A stretch of DNA of 45,238 bases from positions 1 through 45,238 of the IMG/VR virus record IMGVR_UViG_3300049914_000102, one strand, 5' to 3'. The notes below the pieces were generated by a model. The model was not told the origin of the DNA. It was given only the letters and a program-made list of their open reading frames with translations, and did not search any database. The position numbers were made by a program, and so were the translations under genes. Positions 2,701-25,902 of this stretch are shown one piece after another (positions within the stretch are counted from its first letter, which is position 1; every line of letters begins with the position of its first letter). Origin of the DNA: a virus.

Positions 2701-3548
2701 TTTAACTCTAAATACATTTTAGCAACATTGTCAATATGATAAAATTCCGACCTTGCTAGGTTCTTTCTCGCCAGATCATCGTAAAGAAAAATGTCAGTTT
2801 TAAGTTTTTCGAGCCACATTATCATTTCGTCTATTGTGTTGGCCGGAAGGAAACATCCGTCAAACTCCATGAGGTAGTTTTTCTCAGGAAATGAGACTGT
2901 TGGTATTCCAAATGAACTGGAATTGCCCAATTTGTTAGGATTGGCAAAAGGAGCAAGAAGCGACCACTTAACTGTCGGCCTCCAAACTACCTGAACATCC
3001 AATGAATAGTAAAAATCAGCCACATTTAGCCTCATTTCAGGGCGACCTTTATGACCTTTGTAAACATTCCAATAATCTTCCTCATACTTCAATTCCATCC
3101 CGATACTCTCGACCATCTTCCTAAACTTGTCCGTCGGGTACTGAAAAGAACTCTTTTGACCGATAATCCCCACTGTCTTTACTTCTCTGGGCGGTCTGAT
3201 GCGTCTTTCAAAGTTACAATGCTGATGGGGAATAAAAATAATGTCATCTCGTTTAAGAATCTTGCTCATTTGTTCTTTGGCATAGAGAGAAATGGCAATT
3301 ACCCCGAACTCTGGGTGAGTTTTTAAGAACTCTAATTGTTTCGGGGAGTCATCCACATCGCAATAAACCCACTTCGGGTGTTTCTCCGGGGGGACAACCT
3401 TGCTATAAATACACAAATCGTTTTCGTATCCTTCTAGTGGTTTGTCTTTGGCGGTATGGCCGGGAAGTCCATTGAGATACTTAGCCATCTGATAGCCCCT
3501 GATGTATCCCGAACCGCCTCTTGTGTGAAAAAAACTAAAATTCGTCAT
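2697..3548 (-). CDS. Putative GT-B-type glycosyltransferase
   Basis: Protein of 283 aa. The N-terminus has a glycine-rich loop HTRGGSGYIRGYQMAKYL. The C-terminal half has the pattern PNKLGNSSSFGIPTVSFPE, resembling the donor-binding region of GT4-like enzymes in which a nucleotide-sugar site is followed by a G-[TI]-P strand. No transmembrane segment is visible. The start ATG 3548 overlaps the 3' end of the FkbM-like gene by 14 bases; the stop is in an ATGA overlap with the epimerase. A role in building the same glycan as its neighbours is inferred. It could also be a non-enzymatic GT-B fold protein. Confidence 0.55.
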   Translation of the reverse strand: MTNFSFFHTRGGSGYIRGYQMAKYLNGLPGHTAKDKPLEGYENDLCIYSKVVPPEKHPKWVYCDVDDSPKQLEFLKTHPEFGVIAISLYAKEQMSKILKRDDIIFIPHQHCNFERRIRPPREVKTVGIIGQKSSFQYPTDKFRKMVESIGMELKYEEDYWNVYKGHKGRPEMRLNVADFYYSLDVQVVWRPTVKWSLLAPFANPNKLGNSSSFGIPTVSFPEKNYLMEFDGCFLPANTIDEMIMWLEKLKTDIFLYDDLARKNLARSEFYHIDNVAKMYLELK

Positions 3549-4176
3549 TTTTCTTATAAACTATGTCATAACCGTGATTTCTACCCTTTTTTAAGGCAAA
3601 ATTCCGCCGGGCAATTTCCCGGTATCCGTGTTGTTGCATAAAGGACTCGATCTCTCCTACCAGACAGCCATCCTTATATGCCTCAAAATCCAACGCCTCA
3701 GTCTTGATATACTTAAAATTGTCTAAAATAGGCAACACTCCTTTTAAGACAAGCATTTCCGTTCCCTGGGTGTCTAAAACCAGCGCCTCATATTTGCTAA
3801 CGTCGATCTTCTCTTTTCGGCATAAGGTAGTTAGGGTTATTCCTTTTAGGGCAATTGTCTTTACATAGGTTATGTCGGGCCAAAGCTCGTAGTGATCTTT
3901 AAATTCCAGGATCGAGGAAGATTCGCACCTGTTGTTGGAGATATGGAACTTATACTCTTTGTCATCCATATCCGTAACCAGATACCTGAAGGCTTTTTGC
4001 TTGGGATGATTCCTGATTCTCTTTGCTAATAACTTGAAAACCCTCGGTGTCGGTTCAACCCAAACCACGTCCAATTTATATTGGTCATAAACATCTCTTT
4101 CCTGGCCATAACTGGCCCCGACGTGGATTACTCCCGAGACGTCTTTAAGAAATTCAGTTGTTGCTAAGTCAATCAT
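3535..4176 (-). CDS. FkbM-family SAM-dependent methyltransferase
   Basis: Protein of 213 aa showing the FkbM hallmark order. VIHVGASYGQE (SAM loop) comes first, then WVEPTP, a central region with a DMDDKEYKFHISNN type strand, then ITLTTL, then LVLDTQGTEMLVLKG (the family D-x-Q-G-x-E motif), and finally IKTEA. FkbM-type enzymes O-methylate hydroxyls on polyketides and, very often in bacterial and viral glycan loci, on sugars. Coupled by ATGA to the upstream gene (4176-4173). A glycan O-methyltransferase role is inferred from context; the family assignment itself is secure. Confidence 0.82.
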   Translation of the reverse strand: MIDLATTEFLKDVSGVIHVGASYGQERDVYDQYKLDVVWVEPTPRVFKLLAKRIRNHPKQKAFRYLVTDMDDKEYKFHISNNRCESSSILEFKDHYELWPDITYVKTIALKGITLTTLCRKEKIDVSKYEALVLDTQGTEMLVLKGVLPILDNFKYIKTEALDFEAYKDGCLVGEIESFMQQHGYREIARRNFALKKGRNHGYDIVYKKNDEF

Positions 4177-12150: not shown

Positions 12151-12458
12151 TTCTTTAATCCACTCATCGCCTGTTCTAAGGCTTTCTTTGCTTTCTCAGG
12201 CGTTAATAAAAAGGCTTCAAGCAACATATAATTTCTAAGTCTTGCTTTTAAAAATAAATCTTGTTTCGATTCGTAGCCAACCTTAATAAGTTCCTGCTCA
12301 ACACCGTCTCTCATGGCGGCAATATACTCTTTAACGCTCTCTAGTGTGATCTTTCTCTCGCTTAACGCTTTTAACCACGAGTTGAGTGTCTCACGTTCAG
12401 CTACATTCAGGTCTTCATACTTGAGGTTATACTTTTCAAGCACAGTATCGACGTTCAT
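12147..12458 (-). CDS. Small helical protein following the portal, unknown
   Basis: Protein of 103 aa, predicted entirely helical and charged (TVLEKYNLKYEDLNVAERETL, then KARLRNYMLLEAFLLTPEKAKKAL). Such genes are often found directly after portal genes in phages of this type and may be head-assembly or connector factors, but I do not recognise a family. It starts in an ATGA overlap with the portal stop and ends in an ATGA overlap with the endonuclease VII-like gene. Confidence 0.55.
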   Translation of the reverse strand: MNVDTVLEKYNLKYEDLNVAERETLNSWLKALSERKITLESVKEYIAAMRDGVEQELIKVGYESKQDLFLKARLRNYMLLEAFLLTPEKAKKALEQAMSGLKK

Positions 12459-14224
12459 CTGATTTGTCCTCCTTGCGGCATAGTATTAACTTGTGGTTGT
12501 GGTCTTGGTTGGACTGGCGGTCTTACTTGTGGTTGGCCTTGTGCCGGTGGTTGGCCGGGCATTGGTTGCCCCATCGGGCCACCCATTCCCATACTTATCA
12601 TATTTTCTTGTTTCTTCTTCTCGTAGTCCATGATCTGACTTATCTCATCTGGTGACAGATCAGCAAATTCAACTAACTTCCTCTTGTAAACCTCATCTAA
12701 TTTGGGGTTATCCGGCATTGTTAACTTGGCCGCGTTGAGTTTTTGTAGTGAATCCATGTCTTGAACCTTCTTCTCATCCTGGCTCCAGACTTTGACCTGA
12801 TAACCTGACTTGGTCATCCAGTCTTTAGGACTAATCTCTTTAGTAAAGATGTCGCTTGTGTTTCTCCCTTGTTTGTGAATCTTGACCGCCTCTAATTTAT
12901 CCCCGGCCGCCTCAACTAATTTAATGAATATCTCTCCTCTATCCTTCCATGCTTGGGTGTAGAACTTAGAAAGTCCTTTGACCCTCTCTTTTGCCTCACC
13001 TAAAGCAAGTTGAACCTCGCCTAATGTAATTTGTCTTTGGGCTTGCATCCCTTGTTGTGTAGCAGTTGCTCCAGTGGCTTTCTCAGTCATCTGAATTAAG
13101 AATTCCATCTCATCTAATGACTCACTTAAATCAGGAATATCTACTTTTTGCATGATGTCTTGCGGTTTGCCGGGCACACCATACCATCCCCACGGTACAG
13201 GGCTAAACGTCTGAGGTACAAAGCCTTCAATCGTTGAATCGTAGTAATGCATCCCGAAGTTTCTTAGAGTTCTATTCTCAACCACCTGGCTAAACCATGA
13301 ATTTAAGACTTTATTAGGTGTTCTGACAATGTCCCCCACTCCGTCACTCCAGAAGTCTTGTCTTTCAATGTCTCCCGCCCAGGTAACGTAAGGATAATGA
13401 TTCTTCCAGTAGTTGTCTTTGGTCTTGCCGATAACTTCGTCCAAGGGTTTCTTCATTAAAACTTCCATGTCGTCACACTCAACATATAAATACAGTTGTT
13501 CTTTATCCCCTTCGCCTTCGTAAACAAAATGCAAAGTCAATCCAACATAGGTTTCACCCAGGATTGGGTCATGGATGTCACTTACTCCCAAATCCGAGAG
13601 CTTCTTGTTCTTCTCATCGTTATCAGAGGCTTTAATCAGCCCTTGGTCGCTAGCGTGCCAAAGTTTGAGTTTTGCTACGGCCTCTTGGTCATAGGCCGGG
13701 TTATTCTCTAAGGTCTTTAAGGGGACAAATATGTTTGTGTGAATCAGGAAGCGTGACAAATTAAGATTAGAAGGATCACAATAGCGGTCAACCAGTATGT
13801 CTTCGGGGTCTTGGACAGTCATCTTGACCTTGCCGTCAACTATCTGCCATTGATCGAAAGACCGGCCATACAGGAACTGTTGTCTCTTGTCAATAATGTC
13901 CTGAATCTCCATCTTGTTATGCTCGGCGGTGTATTTCCAGTATTCGTTTTTAAATATCTCGGCTTCTTTGTCATTGTCTAGGTTCTCGAAGTGAAGTACC
14001 GGCATATCATCAATATCTTTTAGAAGAGTTTGGACTGCCAGTTTCATCATGGGAAGGTTGACGCTCTGGCGTTGTGTTAAGCGGTTGATAACTACCTTGT
14101 CTCTGTATAGTTGATAGTTCTCATCCCAGTCGGCGTGTCGTCTTTCCCGGTAATTGTAGCCGCTTGTCTTGTTAAGACGAAGCATTGTTAATACGGGGTC
14201 TTCCCGTTTTACTTGTTGTGGCAT
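12455..14224 (-). CDS. Portal protein
   Basis: Protein of 589 aa directly downstream of the large terminase, of portal size. The N-terminal quarter has the typical arrangement RRHADWDENYQLYRD, then MMKLAVQTLLKDIDDMPVL. The middle has DRYCDPSNLNLSRFLIH and the DFWSDGVGDIVRTPNKVLNSW stretch, where P22/podovirus-like portals have G-D-x-x-x-x-Q-x-x-x-N in the stem region. A long helical segment follows (LGEAKERVKGLSKFYTQAW). The last 45 residues are Gly/Pro/Gln-rich and disordered. The promoter element at 14260-14222 runs straight into its ATG with no ribosome site. Confidence 0.82.
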   Translation of the reverse strand: MPQQVKREDPVLTMLRLNKTSGYNYRERRHADWDENYQLYRDKVVINRLTQRQSVNLPMMKLAVQTLLKDIDDMPVLHFENLDNDKEAEIFKNEYWKYTAEHNKMEIQDIIDKRQQFLYGRSFDQWQIVDGKVKMTVQDPEDILVDRYCDPSNLNLSRFLIHTNIFVPLKTLENNPAYDQEAVAKLKLWHASDQGLIKASDNDEKNKKLSDLGVSDIHDPILGETYVGLTLHFVYEGEGDKEQLYLYVECDDMEVLMKKPLDEVIGKTKDNYWKNHYPYVTWAGDIERQDFWSDGVGDIVRTPNKVLNSWFSQVVENRTLRNFGMHYYDSTIEGFVPQTFSPVPWGWYGVPGKPQDIMQKVDIPDLSESLDEMEFLIQMTEKATGATATQQGMQAQRQITLGEVQLALGEAKERVKGLSKFYTQAWKDRGEIFIKLVEAAGDKLEAVKIHKQGRNTSDIFTKEISPKDWMTKSGYQVKVWSQDEKKVQDMDSLQKLNAAKLTMPDNPKLDEVYKRKLVEFADLSPDEISQIMDYEKKKQENMISMGMGGPMGQPMPGQPPAQGQPQVRPPVQPRPQPQVNTMPQGGQIR

Positions 14225-14263: not shown

Positions 14264-16288
14264 TTATCCCGGAAGGCCGGTGAAGAATGGTTTAATCCCA
14301 CCTACTCCCGGCATCTTTTTAATCGGGCCTATCGGTTTAAAACTGTTAATTGCATACCTAACTGAGTCCATACAATTAGAAACAAGAATTCCGCCATTGA
14401 TGGAATAACAACAAGTATCTTCTACTTCGAGGTTATAAACTGCTCTTTTGTAAGATTTTCTGGTAATCCTTTTAATCTGCGTCGTCTGGCTTTCATTTTG
14501 CAATTCTGGTGGCAATACTTTGAATGTATCCCAATATAAGTATTGTATTCTTTGCCACATTGTAAGCAATTTCTTTTTATCTTCTTTCTCTTTTGCCATG
14601 AGATTTTGCCAAGTTCTGAATGAAAGGTTAATCCTTCTTCCGAACCATGCCATTTTGAAGCCAGCACTCTGATTTTGTTTACCCATTTTCTTTGTCTCTG
14701 CCTCTTTTGGGGTGTCATATGATTGCTTAGATGAAAACGTCTTGGCACCAATTCCAGATTCCCTATTAAATTGTTGTGTGGATTCTCGTCTTTGTGGTGA
14801 ATTTGGAAATCTGTTGGAATTAACCCATTGTAAAATTCCCAAACAGCTCGATGTAAGCGTTTCCTCCCACGACTGAAGTATCTTTCGCCATGATAAAGTC
14901 TGTATTCCTTTCCATTGAATATCTGTATTTCCATAAGTAACTGATTGTATCATATCCATTGGGTAAAGTAAAGAGGCTGGACACCAATCTCCACTTTTTA
15001 ACTTGAAAGGATGTTCTCCCGAACAAAAAATCTTTCTACCGTCTATAAATTCCACTTCATATATTTGTTCTATCCCGATTTGCCTTACATCGTAGAATTT
15101 CCTAATTTTTCCATTTTCCGAATATAAATAACCTTTCTTACCAACTAAATTCTTTATCTTTATCTGACCTTTTGTTGTATCTACTAAAGTATTGCCATCT
15201 ACGCAGTGATTCATAAACTCTTGTGGCTCATTGATCGTCTTGCCTTCCTTATCGGTTATCCATAAGTAGTTGCGGTATTCTTTTATGAGAGAGACGCTCC
15301 GGGATGTGACACTAATCCTTTGTTGTTGGACATATTGAATCCCTTGTTTTACCGAATCAGGCCCCTTGACCGAGGGCATGACATTTATTCCCTTGCCCTC
15401 TAGTCTAAACAACTTAATCTCATCAATGCTCTTTGGCTCGGCACTGTCGGCAATCACTAAAGCGTGAGGTTGGTTAATCAGAACGTCGAAAATATCTCTA
15501 TTAGTCATGCCGTATTGGTAAGCAATCTCGTCTAAGATGTAGCCGCCGTTATAATAATAGATGGCAATAATGGCCGTCGGATCGTTTGTATAGCCAAAAT
15601 CAAGACCATAGCGCCTCAGTTGAGCTTCGTGGGGTATGTTCTCGAGTATTTGCCAGCCTTGGTATATTCTTGCCTCAACCACCCCTAATTGACCTAAACC
15701 ATAGACTTGCCACCACGCCACATTCCCTTTCCTCGCCTCAATCGCTTTGACGATATTTATGTCTAAGGCTTCATTGTCCTTGTAAGTCAATGTAAGGAAG
15801 TCCACATTGTCTAAATTCATTACATCGGTGTAAAACCAAAACTCCGCTTCCGGGTTCCAGTCTAACCAAATTATTTCTTTAGTCCTTACCTCTAATTGTG
15901 TATATGTTTCATAAGTCAAATGATTGGCTTCGTTGATAAAAAGAATATCTCGTCTTGCTCCCTTGACTTTTTCCCATGACTCAACACCAAAGAACTCAAT
16001 GATTGACCCCGTCTCGAAAGTGTAAATGGAATTAGTCTTTTCCCACCGATTATCTTGGAAGTAGTTATGTTCCTTCATTATGTTTAGAAAGTCTCTCATT
16101 GCACCCTTACGAAGGTGGGGCATTGATTCGGAGACGATTGAAATCACTTTGTTATCATTCTTTTGGGCATAGGTAATTAAGATAAGAAGAATAGAAACCG
16201 TTTTCGAGGCAGAAGTGCCACCAGATACTCCACGAATACGTTTACTCAGTTGTTGGAGTTTCTGAGTTGCTTGCGTTAGCTGATACAT
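14264..16288 (-). CDS. terL: Terminase large subunit with an intein
   Basis: Precursor of 674 aa. The ATPase part has a P-loop variant GGTSASKT (23-30) and Walker B/catalytic Glu DILFINEAN (114-122, E120). The nuclease part has GLDFGYTNDP (D230), VIADSAEP (D281) and the last acidic motif DSVRYA (D641). An intein of 277 residues (C362 to N638) interrupts just before that motif, so only the spliced 397-residue protein is a full nuclease. The host protein is of the Terminase_3/PBSX-like type. The start is ATG 16288 with AGAAGG seven bases upstream, overlapping the small terminase by 47 bases. Confidence 0.88.
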   Translation of the reverse strand: MYQLTQATQKLQQLSKRIRGVSGGTSASKTVSILLILITYAQKNDNKVISIVSESMPHLRKGAMRDFLNIMKEHNYFQDNRWEKTNSIYTFETGSIIEFFGVESWEKVKGARRDILFINEANHLTYETYTQLEVRTKEIIWLDWNPEAEFWFYTDVMNLDNVDFLTLTYKDNEALDINIVKAIEARKGNVAWWQVYGLGQLGVVEARIYQGWQILENIPHEAQLRRYGLDFGYTNDPTAIIAIYYYNGGYILDEIAYQYGMTNRDIFDVLINQPHALVIADSAEPKSIDEIKLFRLEGKGINVMPSVKGPDSVKQGIQYVQQQRISVTSRSVSLIKEYRNYLWITDKEGKTINEPQEFMNHCVDGNTLVDTTKGQIKIKNLVGKKGYLYSENGKIRKFYDVRQIGIEQIYEVEFIDGRKIFCSGEHPFKLKSGDWCPASLLYPMDMIQSVTYGNTDIQWKGIQTLSWRKILQSWEETLTSSCLGILQWVNSNRFPNSPQRRESTQQFNRESGIGAKTFSSKQSYDTPKEAETKKMGKQNQSAGFKMAWFGRRINLSFRTWQNLMAKEKEDKKKLLTMWQRIQYLYWDTFKVLPPELQNESQTTQIKRITRKSYKRAVYNLEVEDTCCYSINGGILVSNCMDSVRYAINSFKPIGPIKKMPGVGGIKPFFTGLPG
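14375..15205 (-). mobile_element. Intein in the terminase, with the endonuclease slot read out of frame
   Basis: Block A is CVDGNTLVDTTKGQIKIKNL, starting at the splice Cys (C362). Block B is FCSGEHPFKLKSGDW, with the conserved His. Blocks F/G read VYNLEVEDTCCYSINGGILV then SN before the C-extein Cys. The penultimate residue is Ser instead of the usual His. About 90 N-terminal and 35 C-terminal residues would form a minimal splicing domain. The roughly 150 residues between them are not an endonuclease in this frame but lie opposite an HNH gene in another frame (14422-14934). Insertion at a catalytic motif of terminase is typical of inteins. Confidence 0.85.
14422..14934 (-). CDS. HNH homing endonuclease nested in the terminase intein
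   Basis: Protein of 170 aa on the same strand as terL but in a different frame. It has an HNH_3-type core: RLHRAVWEFYNGLIP, then FQIHHKDENPHNN and GNLELVPR. Then come a basic stretch, a zinc knuckle (CLQCGKEY ... KYCHQNC) and a Lys/Arg-rich tail. It ends at 14422, within codons for intein block F. Homing endonucleases normally sit in-frame between the two intein halves; here it occupies that exact place out of frame. No ribosome site precedes ATG 14934, so expression could need internal initiation or frameshifting. Confidence 0.75.
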   Translation of the reverse strand: MEIQIFNGKEYRLYHGERYFSRGRKRLHRAVWEFYNGLIPTDFQIHHKDENPHNNLIGNLELVPRRFHLSNHMTPQKRQRQRKWVNKIRVLASKWHGSEEGLTFHSELGKISWQKRKKIKRNCLQCGKEYNTYIGIHSKYCHQNCKMKARRRRLKGLPENLTKEQFITSK

Positions 16289-16655
16289 TTTTACCTTCTA
16301 ATATTGGAATTGGCCTTCCTCCAGAAGTTAAATCAACAGCGGATTTCTCTATCATATCGTGATTAACTTTAAGAAGGAGAGCAATAATAGTAGCATTGAT
16401 TTCTTTACCTCCAAAGATTCCCGTTTTGATTAAAGCTTCCTTTTGTCTCATCTTTAATTCTTCTAAAGTGTCGGAAAACTCTGGATGAATTTTTGCCCAT
16501 TCGTAAAGTGTATCTCTAGAAATGCCTAATCTAAGCGCTATTCCTTCTATGGTTGGAATTGCCATATTTTCAGGGACAGCTTCTTCAAGGTACTTATTGA
16601 TTTCATTTATCACTTCAGGAGTATATAGTGTTGGTCTACCGCCGGGGTGTGTCAT
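16242..16655 (-). CDS. terS: Terminase small subunit
   Basis: Protein of 137 aa. N-terminal PGGRPTLYTPEVINEINKYL, then the helix-turn-helix IEGIALRLGISRDTLYEWAKIHPEFSDTL, a common signature of small terminases that recognise the packaging site. A helical oligomerisation segment (MRQKEALIKTGIFGG) and a short tail follow. Located directly upstream of terL and overlapping it. Its ribosome site (GAAG) is weak, and only 12 bases separate it from the stop of the Tad2-like gene, so it is probably cotranscribed with the early region. Confidence 0.85.
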   Translation of the reverse strand: MTHPGGRPTLYTPEVINEINKYLEEAVPENMAIPTIEGIALRLGISRDTLYEWAKIHPEFSDTLEELKMRQKEALIKTGIFGGKEINATIIALLLKVNHDMIEKSAVDLTSGGRPIPILEGKNVSANASNSETPTTE

Positions 16656-16939: not shown

Positions 16940-17191
16940 TTAAATTGATCTTAACATTACAAAATAACTTTTATTGCTTATAATACAAGCTCTTCTGATA
17001 TAGCCTTTAAGTAATAAACCTTTAATTGCATTAATTACTGCCGGGGCTTTGTGTTCTTGTTCTTTTGTTTTGGTCATTATTTCTTTTAATGGTATTGGTG
17101 TTTTCTCTTTGTGAACCCAATCAATAATCACATACATTATGTCTTTCTGTAATTTAGTCAGGTCGCTAATCGTTACATAAATTGTCTGCAT
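16940..17191 (-). CDS. Small winged-helix-like protein, unknown
   Basis: Protein of 83 aa. The order of elements (LTKLQKDIMYVIIDWVHKE, PIPLKEIMTKTKEQE, KAPAVINAIKGLLLKGYIRRA, then a beta strand NKSYFVMLRSI) reads like a winged helix: helix, helix, recognition helix and wing. This would suit a small DNA-binding regulator, but there is no family match I can name. It overlaps the end of the NinG-like gene by 26 bases and lacks a ribosome site, implying translational coupling. Confidence 0.5.
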   Translation of the reverse strand: MQTIYVTISDLTKLQKDIMYVIIDWVHKEKTPIPLKEIMTKTKEQEHKAPAVINAIKGLLLKGYIRRACIISNKSYFVMLRSI

Positions 17192-17543
17192 TGGACAGTT
17201 GTTCTATTATACTCCTTAGGAAACCTTTGTTTAATTTTTGAATGATGTGTCTTTTCTTTTGAAGCTCATCCGCCCATTTCATTCCTTTCTTCTTTAAAAT
17301 GGTTTGGATGATAATGGGGTCGCCAGACAAATGAAGCCTTGTGTGGCACTGAAGGCATAAGGCAACCAGATTCGACAAGTCGAAGCGGGTATTGTTGGAT
17401 TGTGATTTAAGAATATAATGATGCCCAATCACATTACCTTTCCCGCAAACTATACAAAAGTGGTGTAGCGAACAGAATTTAAGTTGTAGTAACCTATCCG
17501 CTTGAGCTATTAAAGACTTTAAAGATTGCTTTCTTGTTTTCAT
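17166..17543 (-). CDS. HNH nuclease, NinG/Rap-like
   Basis: 125 aa from MKTRKQSLK. Features are a C30-x2-C33 pair, GHHYILKSQSNNTRFDLSNL, and C63-x2-C66-H, followed by a helix pattern (IIQTILKKKGMKWADEL). The H-x-H-Y, R-F-D, N-L and CxxCH order follows lambda NinG, a recombination factor, though this protein is shorter and is best called a NinG-like HNH protein. I chose ATG 17543 because it forms an ATGA overlap with the upstream 54-aa gene; longer starts up to 17588 would run deep inside that gene. Likely role: processing recombination intermediates. Confidence 0.65.
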   Translation of the reverse strand: MKTRKQSLKSLIAQADRLLQLKFCSLHHFCIVCGKGNVIGHHYILKSQSNNTRFDLSNLVALCLQCHTRLHLSGDPIIIQTILKKKGMKWADELQKKRHIIQKLNKGFLRSIIEQLSNADNLCND

Positions 17544-17704
17544 TTTCTTACAAGTTGCCATAATTTTACCCATTGGTTTTTTATCCAAGGGTCAGACTTT
17601 TGATAAACTGGTCTACCTTGGTGAAAAGCACAGTAGCGACTCGGCCCGTTGCGTATTTTTTCGCAACCTTTAACACAACACCAAAAATTATATTTTTCTT
17701 TCAT
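17540..17704 (-). CDS. Small zinc-finger-like protein
   Basis: 54-aa protein, MKEKYNFWCCVKGCEKIRNG, continuing SRYCAFHQG and a Trp-rich basic end (DPWIKNQWVKLWQLVRK). The C-C-x3-C ... C-x2-H spacing suggests one zinc-binding knuckle. The frame is closed by a stop three codons upstream of ATG 17704, and its TGA overlaps the ATG of the NinG-like gene (ATGA), so the two are probably coupled. Phage genes of this size and pattern are common next to HNH genes, but function is unknown. Confidence 0.6.
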   Translation of the reverse strand: MKEKYNFWCCVKGCEKIRNGPSRYCAFHQGRPVYQKSDPWIKNQWVKLWQLVRK

Positions 17705-25874: not shown

Positions 25875-25902
25875 TTGACAAACTGCTAGTAAGTGATACA
25901 AT
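25875..25902 (+). promoter_or_regulatory. Plus-strand promoter for the boundary RNA
   Basis: TTGACA (25875-25880), 16 bases, TACAAT (25897-25902) with a TGA extended -10. Predicted transcript start near 25908-25910. The only convincing plus-strand promoter I found in the genome. Confidence 0.6.

Follow-up and report, generated by a model that had tools for sequence, protein, structure and literature searches.

An HNH homing-endonuclease-like gene nested out of frame in a phage large-terminase intein

The window, i.e. the whole stretch of 45,238 nt analysed here (IMG/VR record IMGVR_UViG_3300049914_000102), contains an open reading frame (ORF) for the large terminase subunit TerL that holds an intein. 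A gene for an HNH protein is located within the intein-coding DNA, on the same strand and in another reading frame. The relevant features are the following.

14264..16288, minus strand: terL, large terminase ORF holding the intein; 674 aa, exteins are residues 1-361 and 639-674
14375..15205, minus strand: intein of 277 aa, TerL residues 362-638; Cys1, Asn277, Cys+1
14930..15205, minus strand: Hint N-half with blocks A and B; residues about 5-96 of the AlphaFold model, pLDDT about 90
14375..14485, minus strand: Hint C-half, a strand before block F followed by F and G, ending QIKRITRKSYKRAVYNLEVEDTCCYSINGGILVSN
14422..14930, minus strand: overlap, a linker in the TerL frame; mostly predicted to be disordered, low conservation in the host frame
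14422..14934, minus strand: HNH homing-endonuclease-like gene of 170 aa with an ATG start, in +1 with respect to the terL frame
14944..14972, minus strand: promoter-like site TTTACT-17-TACAAT, the second hexamer preceded by TG; TGATACAAT at 14944-14952, its end 9 nt upstream of the HNH ATG
16242..16655, minus strand: probable small terminase, an ordinary neighbour named by position and sequence only
12455..14224, minus strand: probable portal protein, an ordinary neighbour named by position

The TerL ORF matches Terminase_3 (9e-11) and Terminase_3C (1.3e-9) of Pfam and the terminase large subunit family phrog_2. An earlier note on this DNA, made from the letters alone, had placed an intein at 14375-15205, and our analysis recovered exactly these coordinates. 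The intein is preceded by EPQEFMNH and followed by CMDSVRYAIN, and its insertion point is DxxRY, a conserved motif in the nuclease domain of TerL. All four Hint splicing blocks (A, B, F and G) are present in the host frame, together with the nucleophile at position 1 (C1), the terminal Asn (N277) and one of C/S/T at position +1 (C+1); the +1 residue is Cys or Ser in 111 of 111 parsed nested loci from the survey described below. In profile searches the TerL frame matched Pfam Intein_splicing with an E value of 1e-7 (32.3 bits, under the curated cut-off of 35.8) and NCBIfam intein_Nterm with 5e-5 (slightly under the cut-off), and the +1 frame matched HNH_3 at 6.7e-13, which agrees with the description of Hint blocks in the terL frame and an HNH protein in another frame of the same strand. 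The penultimate His of block G is missing in the window intein, where SN is found at the position of HN in most relatives. This His is not universal among inteins. Judged from the motif, the exchange may result in slower splicing.

The window HNH protein is full length and retains every invariant residue. His47, Asn55, Asn59 and Leu60 are invariant in 52 HNH sequences, and the HNH catalytic and Cys residues are likewise invariant; besides the HNH motif, the protein has a four-Cys zinc-ribbon-like motif at its C-terminus. A profile search of PDB sequences gave I-HmuI as the sole match (E 8.5e-5). Foldseek of the HNH model (mean pLDDT 94) against the PDB also ranked I-HmuI first, with a weak E value of 0.23, and was otherwise uninformative. 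A second ORF of the window with an HNH-like pattern (CVVCGKGNVIGHH...NLVALCLQCHTRLH) is located at 17166-17588 on the minus strand, upstream of the terminase genes.

The AlphaFold model of the intein was built with 26 related inteins. Its Hint domain is confident in two pieces (residues 1-92 and about 241-281, with the blocks near 90 pLDDT), and the overlap in the TerL frame has a pLDDT below 50 over nearly all of model residues about 97-239. In Foldseek the Hint model matches DnaB, DnaE and RecA inteins (5.5e-8 for the Ssp DnaB mini-intein), and profile matches of the intein to solved inteins reach 1e-10. According to the AlphaFold models, the overlap therefore corresponds to a folded nuclease in one frame and to a floppy linker in the other. 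In the predicted structure it is located at the standard endonuclease insertion point between the Hint halves.

Alleles that lack the intein were found in three IMG/VR relatives with TerL identities of 82% (L205) and 70% (L206 and L207). With the joined window flanks as query, all three align ungapped across the junction, i.e. they carry a precise empty site, and the Cys at +1 is already present. Flavobacterium phage FpV9 is likewise uninterrupted at the same site (EPVDLYNH-SIDGMRY). From these alignments the intein is a real and precise insertion. The pair of Highwayman and BP10, with HNHs that are 50% identical (nested and free, respectively), was rejected as a clean empty-site pair; their TerLs are only 27% alike. 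Inteins of the same type are found 2-3 codons further along the TerL motif in L011, L034, L038, L059 and L069 (e.g. HHMD|C..N|CTRYA), which moves the insertion point within DxxRY.

Scans with the HNH protein and two HNH alignments, supplemented by GenBank phages, yielded 149 distinct HNH domains. The HNH was the productive query; the intein protein retrieved only four distant matches at 37% from IMG/VR, and a single scan of genome contigs gave one locus, a split form. Locus classes were assigned from HNH, Hint-N and Hint-C profile matches among all ORFs defined from stop to stop. The HNH gene is nested out of frame in one open TerL-intein ORF in 116 of the 149 cases (88 in the +2 and 28 in the +1 phase); since loci were placed in this class when one ORF held both Hint halves, the count is more fairly given as 116 open ORFs among 125 loci with both halves, the other nine being split. 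Further 21 HNH genes occur without Hint, often directly after an uninterrupted terL, and three loci are truncated by contig ends. An HNH in frame with the intein was not found in any of the 149 homologues. The nested form is present in three named GenBank phages, Tetrasphaera phage TJE1, Acinetobacter phage Highwayman and Rhodobacteraceae phage LS06-2018-MD07, each annotated with a single terL CDS and no HNH. The N-exteins match terminase large-subunit families (phrog_2 in 73 of 86; also Terminase_6N, Terminase_3 and others). The boundaries are conserved, with the HNH start fixed 26 codons past the block B His and the HNH end at block F. The observation made in the window is hereby confirmed as real and conserved, and of the two explanations considered in the earlier note, two proteins read from one stretch are supported by the 116 nested homologues in two phases; two frameshifts within a normal in-frame fusion are not.

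Relatives with a stop in the intein frame had been named as evidence against an overlap. Such relatives exist in nine loci (L021, L036, L048, L130, L133, L135, L137, L179 and L201), all of which have the HNH gene between Hint halves on separate ORFs with a new start of the C-half, and they represent another arrangement rather than counter-examples. With TerL broken into N-half, HNH gene and C-half and with Hint halves at the break, they are probable split inteins by their sequences. In L021, L133, L135 and L137 the HNH stop overlaps the start of the C-half (ATGA or GTGA), and in Lactobacillus phage CL2 (L048) the C-half at locus 2487-2771 is unannotated. Free HNH genes of the window's own clade (L060, L063, L172) begin a few tens of bases after an intein-less terL, and some family members sit between terL and portal. 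In Brevundimonas phage vB_BpoS-Poludnitsa (L040) a family member follows terL directly at 3480-3989, where no gene is annotated.

The earlier note had estimated from equal codon frequencies that the terL frame would rarely stay open by chance. A stricter null, in which synonymous HNH codons were permuted within each gene at fixed HNH protein and codon usage, points in the same direction. The window TerL frame has 0 stops versus 10.35 expected, and none of 400 permutations was open. The host frame is free of stops in 28 of 28 loci of the +1 class (10.2 expected) and in 88 of 88 of the +2 class (2.3 expected). The third frame is at expectation (10.5 versus 9.5 and 19.6 versus 19.7 stops), and in the 21 intein-free HNH genes the corresponding frames are open in 0 and 1 cases. 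Two free HNH genes without intein from GC-rich phages, Pseudomonas phage FBPa53 (L043) and Sphaerotilus phage SN1 (L044), have a +2 frame that is open or nearly so over more than 220 codons, a caution that the +2 phase opens easily by itself in GC-rich DNA.

Substitutions were counted in independent pairs of 70-97% nucleotide identity (8 in the +1 and 12 in the +2 class). HNH codon positions 1/2/3 account for 26/17/57% of them in the +1 pairs and for 27/21/52% in the +2 pairs, and the HNH amino acid identity exceeds that of the host frame in 20 of 20 pairs. As judged by this pattern, protein-level constraint acts on the HNH frame. The Hint strand ahead of block F (..TKKIKxI) is overlapped by the HNH tail HQNCKMKARRRRLKG. 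In six sequences the host-frame identity at this tail is 0.56, versus 0.38 (sd 0.035, maximum 0.495) on synonymous resampling. Since the observed identity exceeds the resampled values, both frames are constrained at the 3' end of the HNH gene.

Upstream of the ATG the HNH frame is closed by a stop, at a distance of 5 codons in the window and of 1-6 codons in the +1 class. Because such a nearby stop and the fixed start and end of the HNH gene fit separate initiation, we assume the latter rather than frameshifting. A Shine-Dalgarno-like sequence precedes the HNH start in 61% of the +2, 89% of the split and 57% of the intein-free genes. It is not enriched in the +1 class, with 11% of starts versus 14% of control ATGs, and for this reason a promoter was considered. 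The extended -10 sequence TGATACAAT ends exactly 9 nt before the ATG in 8 of the 24 non-redundant loci of the +1 class, the window among them. These eight are all homologous, and the exact motif is absent from two thirds of the +1 loci. This spacing is that expected for a leaderless HNH transcript, which is suggestive of a candidate promoter. Slightly degenerate extended -10 matches occur in 15 of 65 +2 loci. Synonymous nulls give 2.6 (sd 1.3) for the +1 and 5.0 (sd 1.7) for the +2 class, and TerL bodies have 0 and 1.3% matches per stretch. The nine bases of TGATACAAT are found in other reading frames too (L136, L144, L170), as well as in non-coding DNA before a free (L060) and a split (L036) HNH gene. 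The promoter is suggestive rather than proven, since the protein sequence partly dictates the motif and promoter-like sites in this stretch of the window are no more numerous than in shuffles. The sole other copy of TGATACAAT in the window is located at 25894-25902 on the plus strand (0.39 expected).

With a probability of roughly 0.86, we consider the locus to be a mobile intein that has an independent, overlapping gene for its homing endonuclease. The TerL-intein precursor would be translated straight through, and the Hint domain (blocks A, B, F and G) would excise itself and join the exteins, the overlap being tolerated as a mostly disordered loop at the usual endonuclease insertion point. 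The I-HmuI-like HNH nuclease would be made in the +1 frame with an ATG of its own as the start, perhaps on a short or leaderless mRNA from the embedded extended -10 promoter. Presumably, it cuts intein-less terL at the conserved DxxRY-coding site, and repair of the cut terL would copy the intein together with the HNH gene. The family is pre-adapted to terL, as it is also found free beside intein-less terL and between split terL intein halves, and selection would keep the intein frame open.

Several other explanations were weighed against an independent overlapping gene. In a single metagenomic virus record such as the window, sequencing or assembly indels could make a normal in-frame HNH-intein fusion look out of frame. 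However, the same architecture with two fixed phases and conserved boundaries recurs in 116 distinct loci, among them named GenBank genomes, and errors that disrupt a fusion would not keep the TerL frame stop-free where 10 stops are expected. The relatives, none of which is in frame (0/149), and the stop null rule out such a broken fusion, and we regard it as practically out of the question. Programmed ribosomal frameshifting that yields a fusion of intein-N and HNH, with no separate HNH start, would agree with the poor Shine-Dalgarno sequences of the +1 class. It is nevertheless highly improbable: the HNH frame of this class opens only a few codons before the ATG, the two phases would require two kinds of shift, and the +2, split and free forms have ATG starts with a Shine-Dalgarno-like sequence in 57-89%. 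The insert might also be removed as RNA, i.e. as a group I intron with an HNH ORF, its Hint similarity being incidental. HNH genes are indeed common in group I introns, but an intron fold was not detected (no Rfam match at E up to 1), and the insert is open in the TerL frame with Hint motifs and with profile and fold matches, so that this explanation was rejected as hardly conceivable.

The two remaining explanations concern the role of the HNH protein. It could be a domesticated packaging nuclease, like the HNH proteins beside the terminase in cos phages, instead of a homing enzyme. Family members between terL and portal fit this idea, and such HNHs can have a packaging role (PMC12724721). 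The resemblance to I-HmuI, the sporadic and precise insertion with empty sites, the spread decoupled from TerL and the position inside an intein argue against it, and we judge it very unlikely, if marginally less so than frameshifting. Alternatively, the HNH gene may be a decaying fossil and the open TerL frame may merely reflect the intein. Decay does occur, as demonstrated by a locus (L035:2197-2358) in which the HNH gene is down to its final 54 codons, still out of frame with a TerL-intein ORF that is open. By its sequence this locus is an apparent case of nuclease decay toward a mini-intein. The window HNH, on the other hand, is intact, and third-position substitutions are in excess among its relatives, which leaves little room for a fossil.

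The spread of the HNH gene does not follow that of its host. HNH similarity is decoupled from TerL, with 94 pairs in which the HNHs are at least 55% and the TerLs less than 32% identical, and the TerLs of the window (+1) and L074 (+2) are 56% identical at different phases. On a quick HNH tree, 3 changes are required for the +1 loci and 16 for the intein-free loci, where starred branches force at least 4; the tree does not give the direction of change. Based on these sequences, a terL-associated free HNH gene probably entered terL inteins as a complete gene, in the manner in which the entry of a free nuclease was proposed for composite mobile introns (PMC3984707). In the simplest history, the intein after entry either stays readable through the HNH gene or splits. 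On balance we lean towards a class of TerL inteins that is widespread in phages and has the homing endonuclease encoded by an independent, overlapping gene, which has a start and possibly also an embedded promoter of its own. This gene would have been acquired on more than one occasion (two phases) from free-standing HNH genes associated with terL, and split inteins would be an alternative outcome of the same invasion.

The closest published case is the ShiLan domain, described together with the Pacc40 gp60 insertion (Arsenault, Gosselin and Gogarten 2025, PMC11855218), where an HNH gene lies out of frame within the DNA methylase gene of a phage. Both systems are from phages and share an out-of-frame HNH in an insertion, an open host frame and a homing pattern, and a leaderless start was suggested for ShiLan as well. 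In contrast to ShiLan, for which no intein splicing domain or self-splicing element was found, Hint halves flank the window HNH, and the arrangement is conserved in more than 100 TerL inteins and in two phases. Full-text searches of the literature retrieved no earlier case of an endonuclease out of frame within an intein, which does not establish priority.

Canonical mobile inteins such as PI-SceI and the DnaB inteins (PMC6801210) have the Hint fold, the endonuclease slot between its halves and the insertion in a conserved active-site motif in common with the window intein. Their endonuclease is in frame, whereas that of the window is a separate gene in the +1 frame and lies outside the intein polypeptide. 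Inteins in TerL are also found in mycobacteriophages (PMC5050341), there in the ATPase domain and here at DxxRY in the nuclease domain at the C-terminus. The window HNH has the HNH core and the phage setting in common with I-HmuI (PDB 1u3e) and with related HNH homing endonucleases from group I introns. I-HmuI itself is located in an intron and has different DNA-binding parts, whereas the C-terminus of the window HNH is a four-Cys motif. In collaborative homing and composite mobile introns (PMC3984707), a free-standing nuclease and a splicing element similarly converge on one target and then fuse into a mobile element. This was described for introns, whereas in an intein the nuclease must coexist with a second protein frame.

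The nine split relatives resemble fractured genes in having an independent endonuclease gene between Hint halves, and differ in this from the window, where the intein is one continuous ORF through the nuclease gene. Split inteins whose halves flank a homing endonuclease gene are reportedly the subject of 'Fractured genes' (Dassa et al. 2009, NAR 37:2560, as cited in PMC10448857), and the endonuclease family there is reportedly EDxHD/Vsr-like, not HNH.

Inteins are described as carrying the endonuclease as an in-frame domain; more than 100 phage inteins in our set keep a separate gene in about 500 shared bases. A free gene beside terL, a nested gene in an intact intein and a gene between split halves form a natural series, which makes the joining of endonuclease and intein and the origin of split inteins directly testable. 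The long overlaps also provide a set for measuring the cost of dual coding. Ordinary annotation misses this HNH family, as gene callers report only the long TerL ORF in TJE1, Highwayman and LS06-2018-MD07. If our interpretation is true, it would describe a pathway for building mobile inteins parallel to that known for introns, and the overlaps might rank with the longest same-strand gene overlaps that are known to be recurrently conserved in phages.

Several host TerLs seem to contain a second intein further upstream. N-exteins of more than 600 aa occur in L093, L100, L124, L168, L170 and L190, and LAGLIDADG_3 matches 5 and Hom_end 4 of 86 N-exteins (counted over all N-exteins, not per locus).
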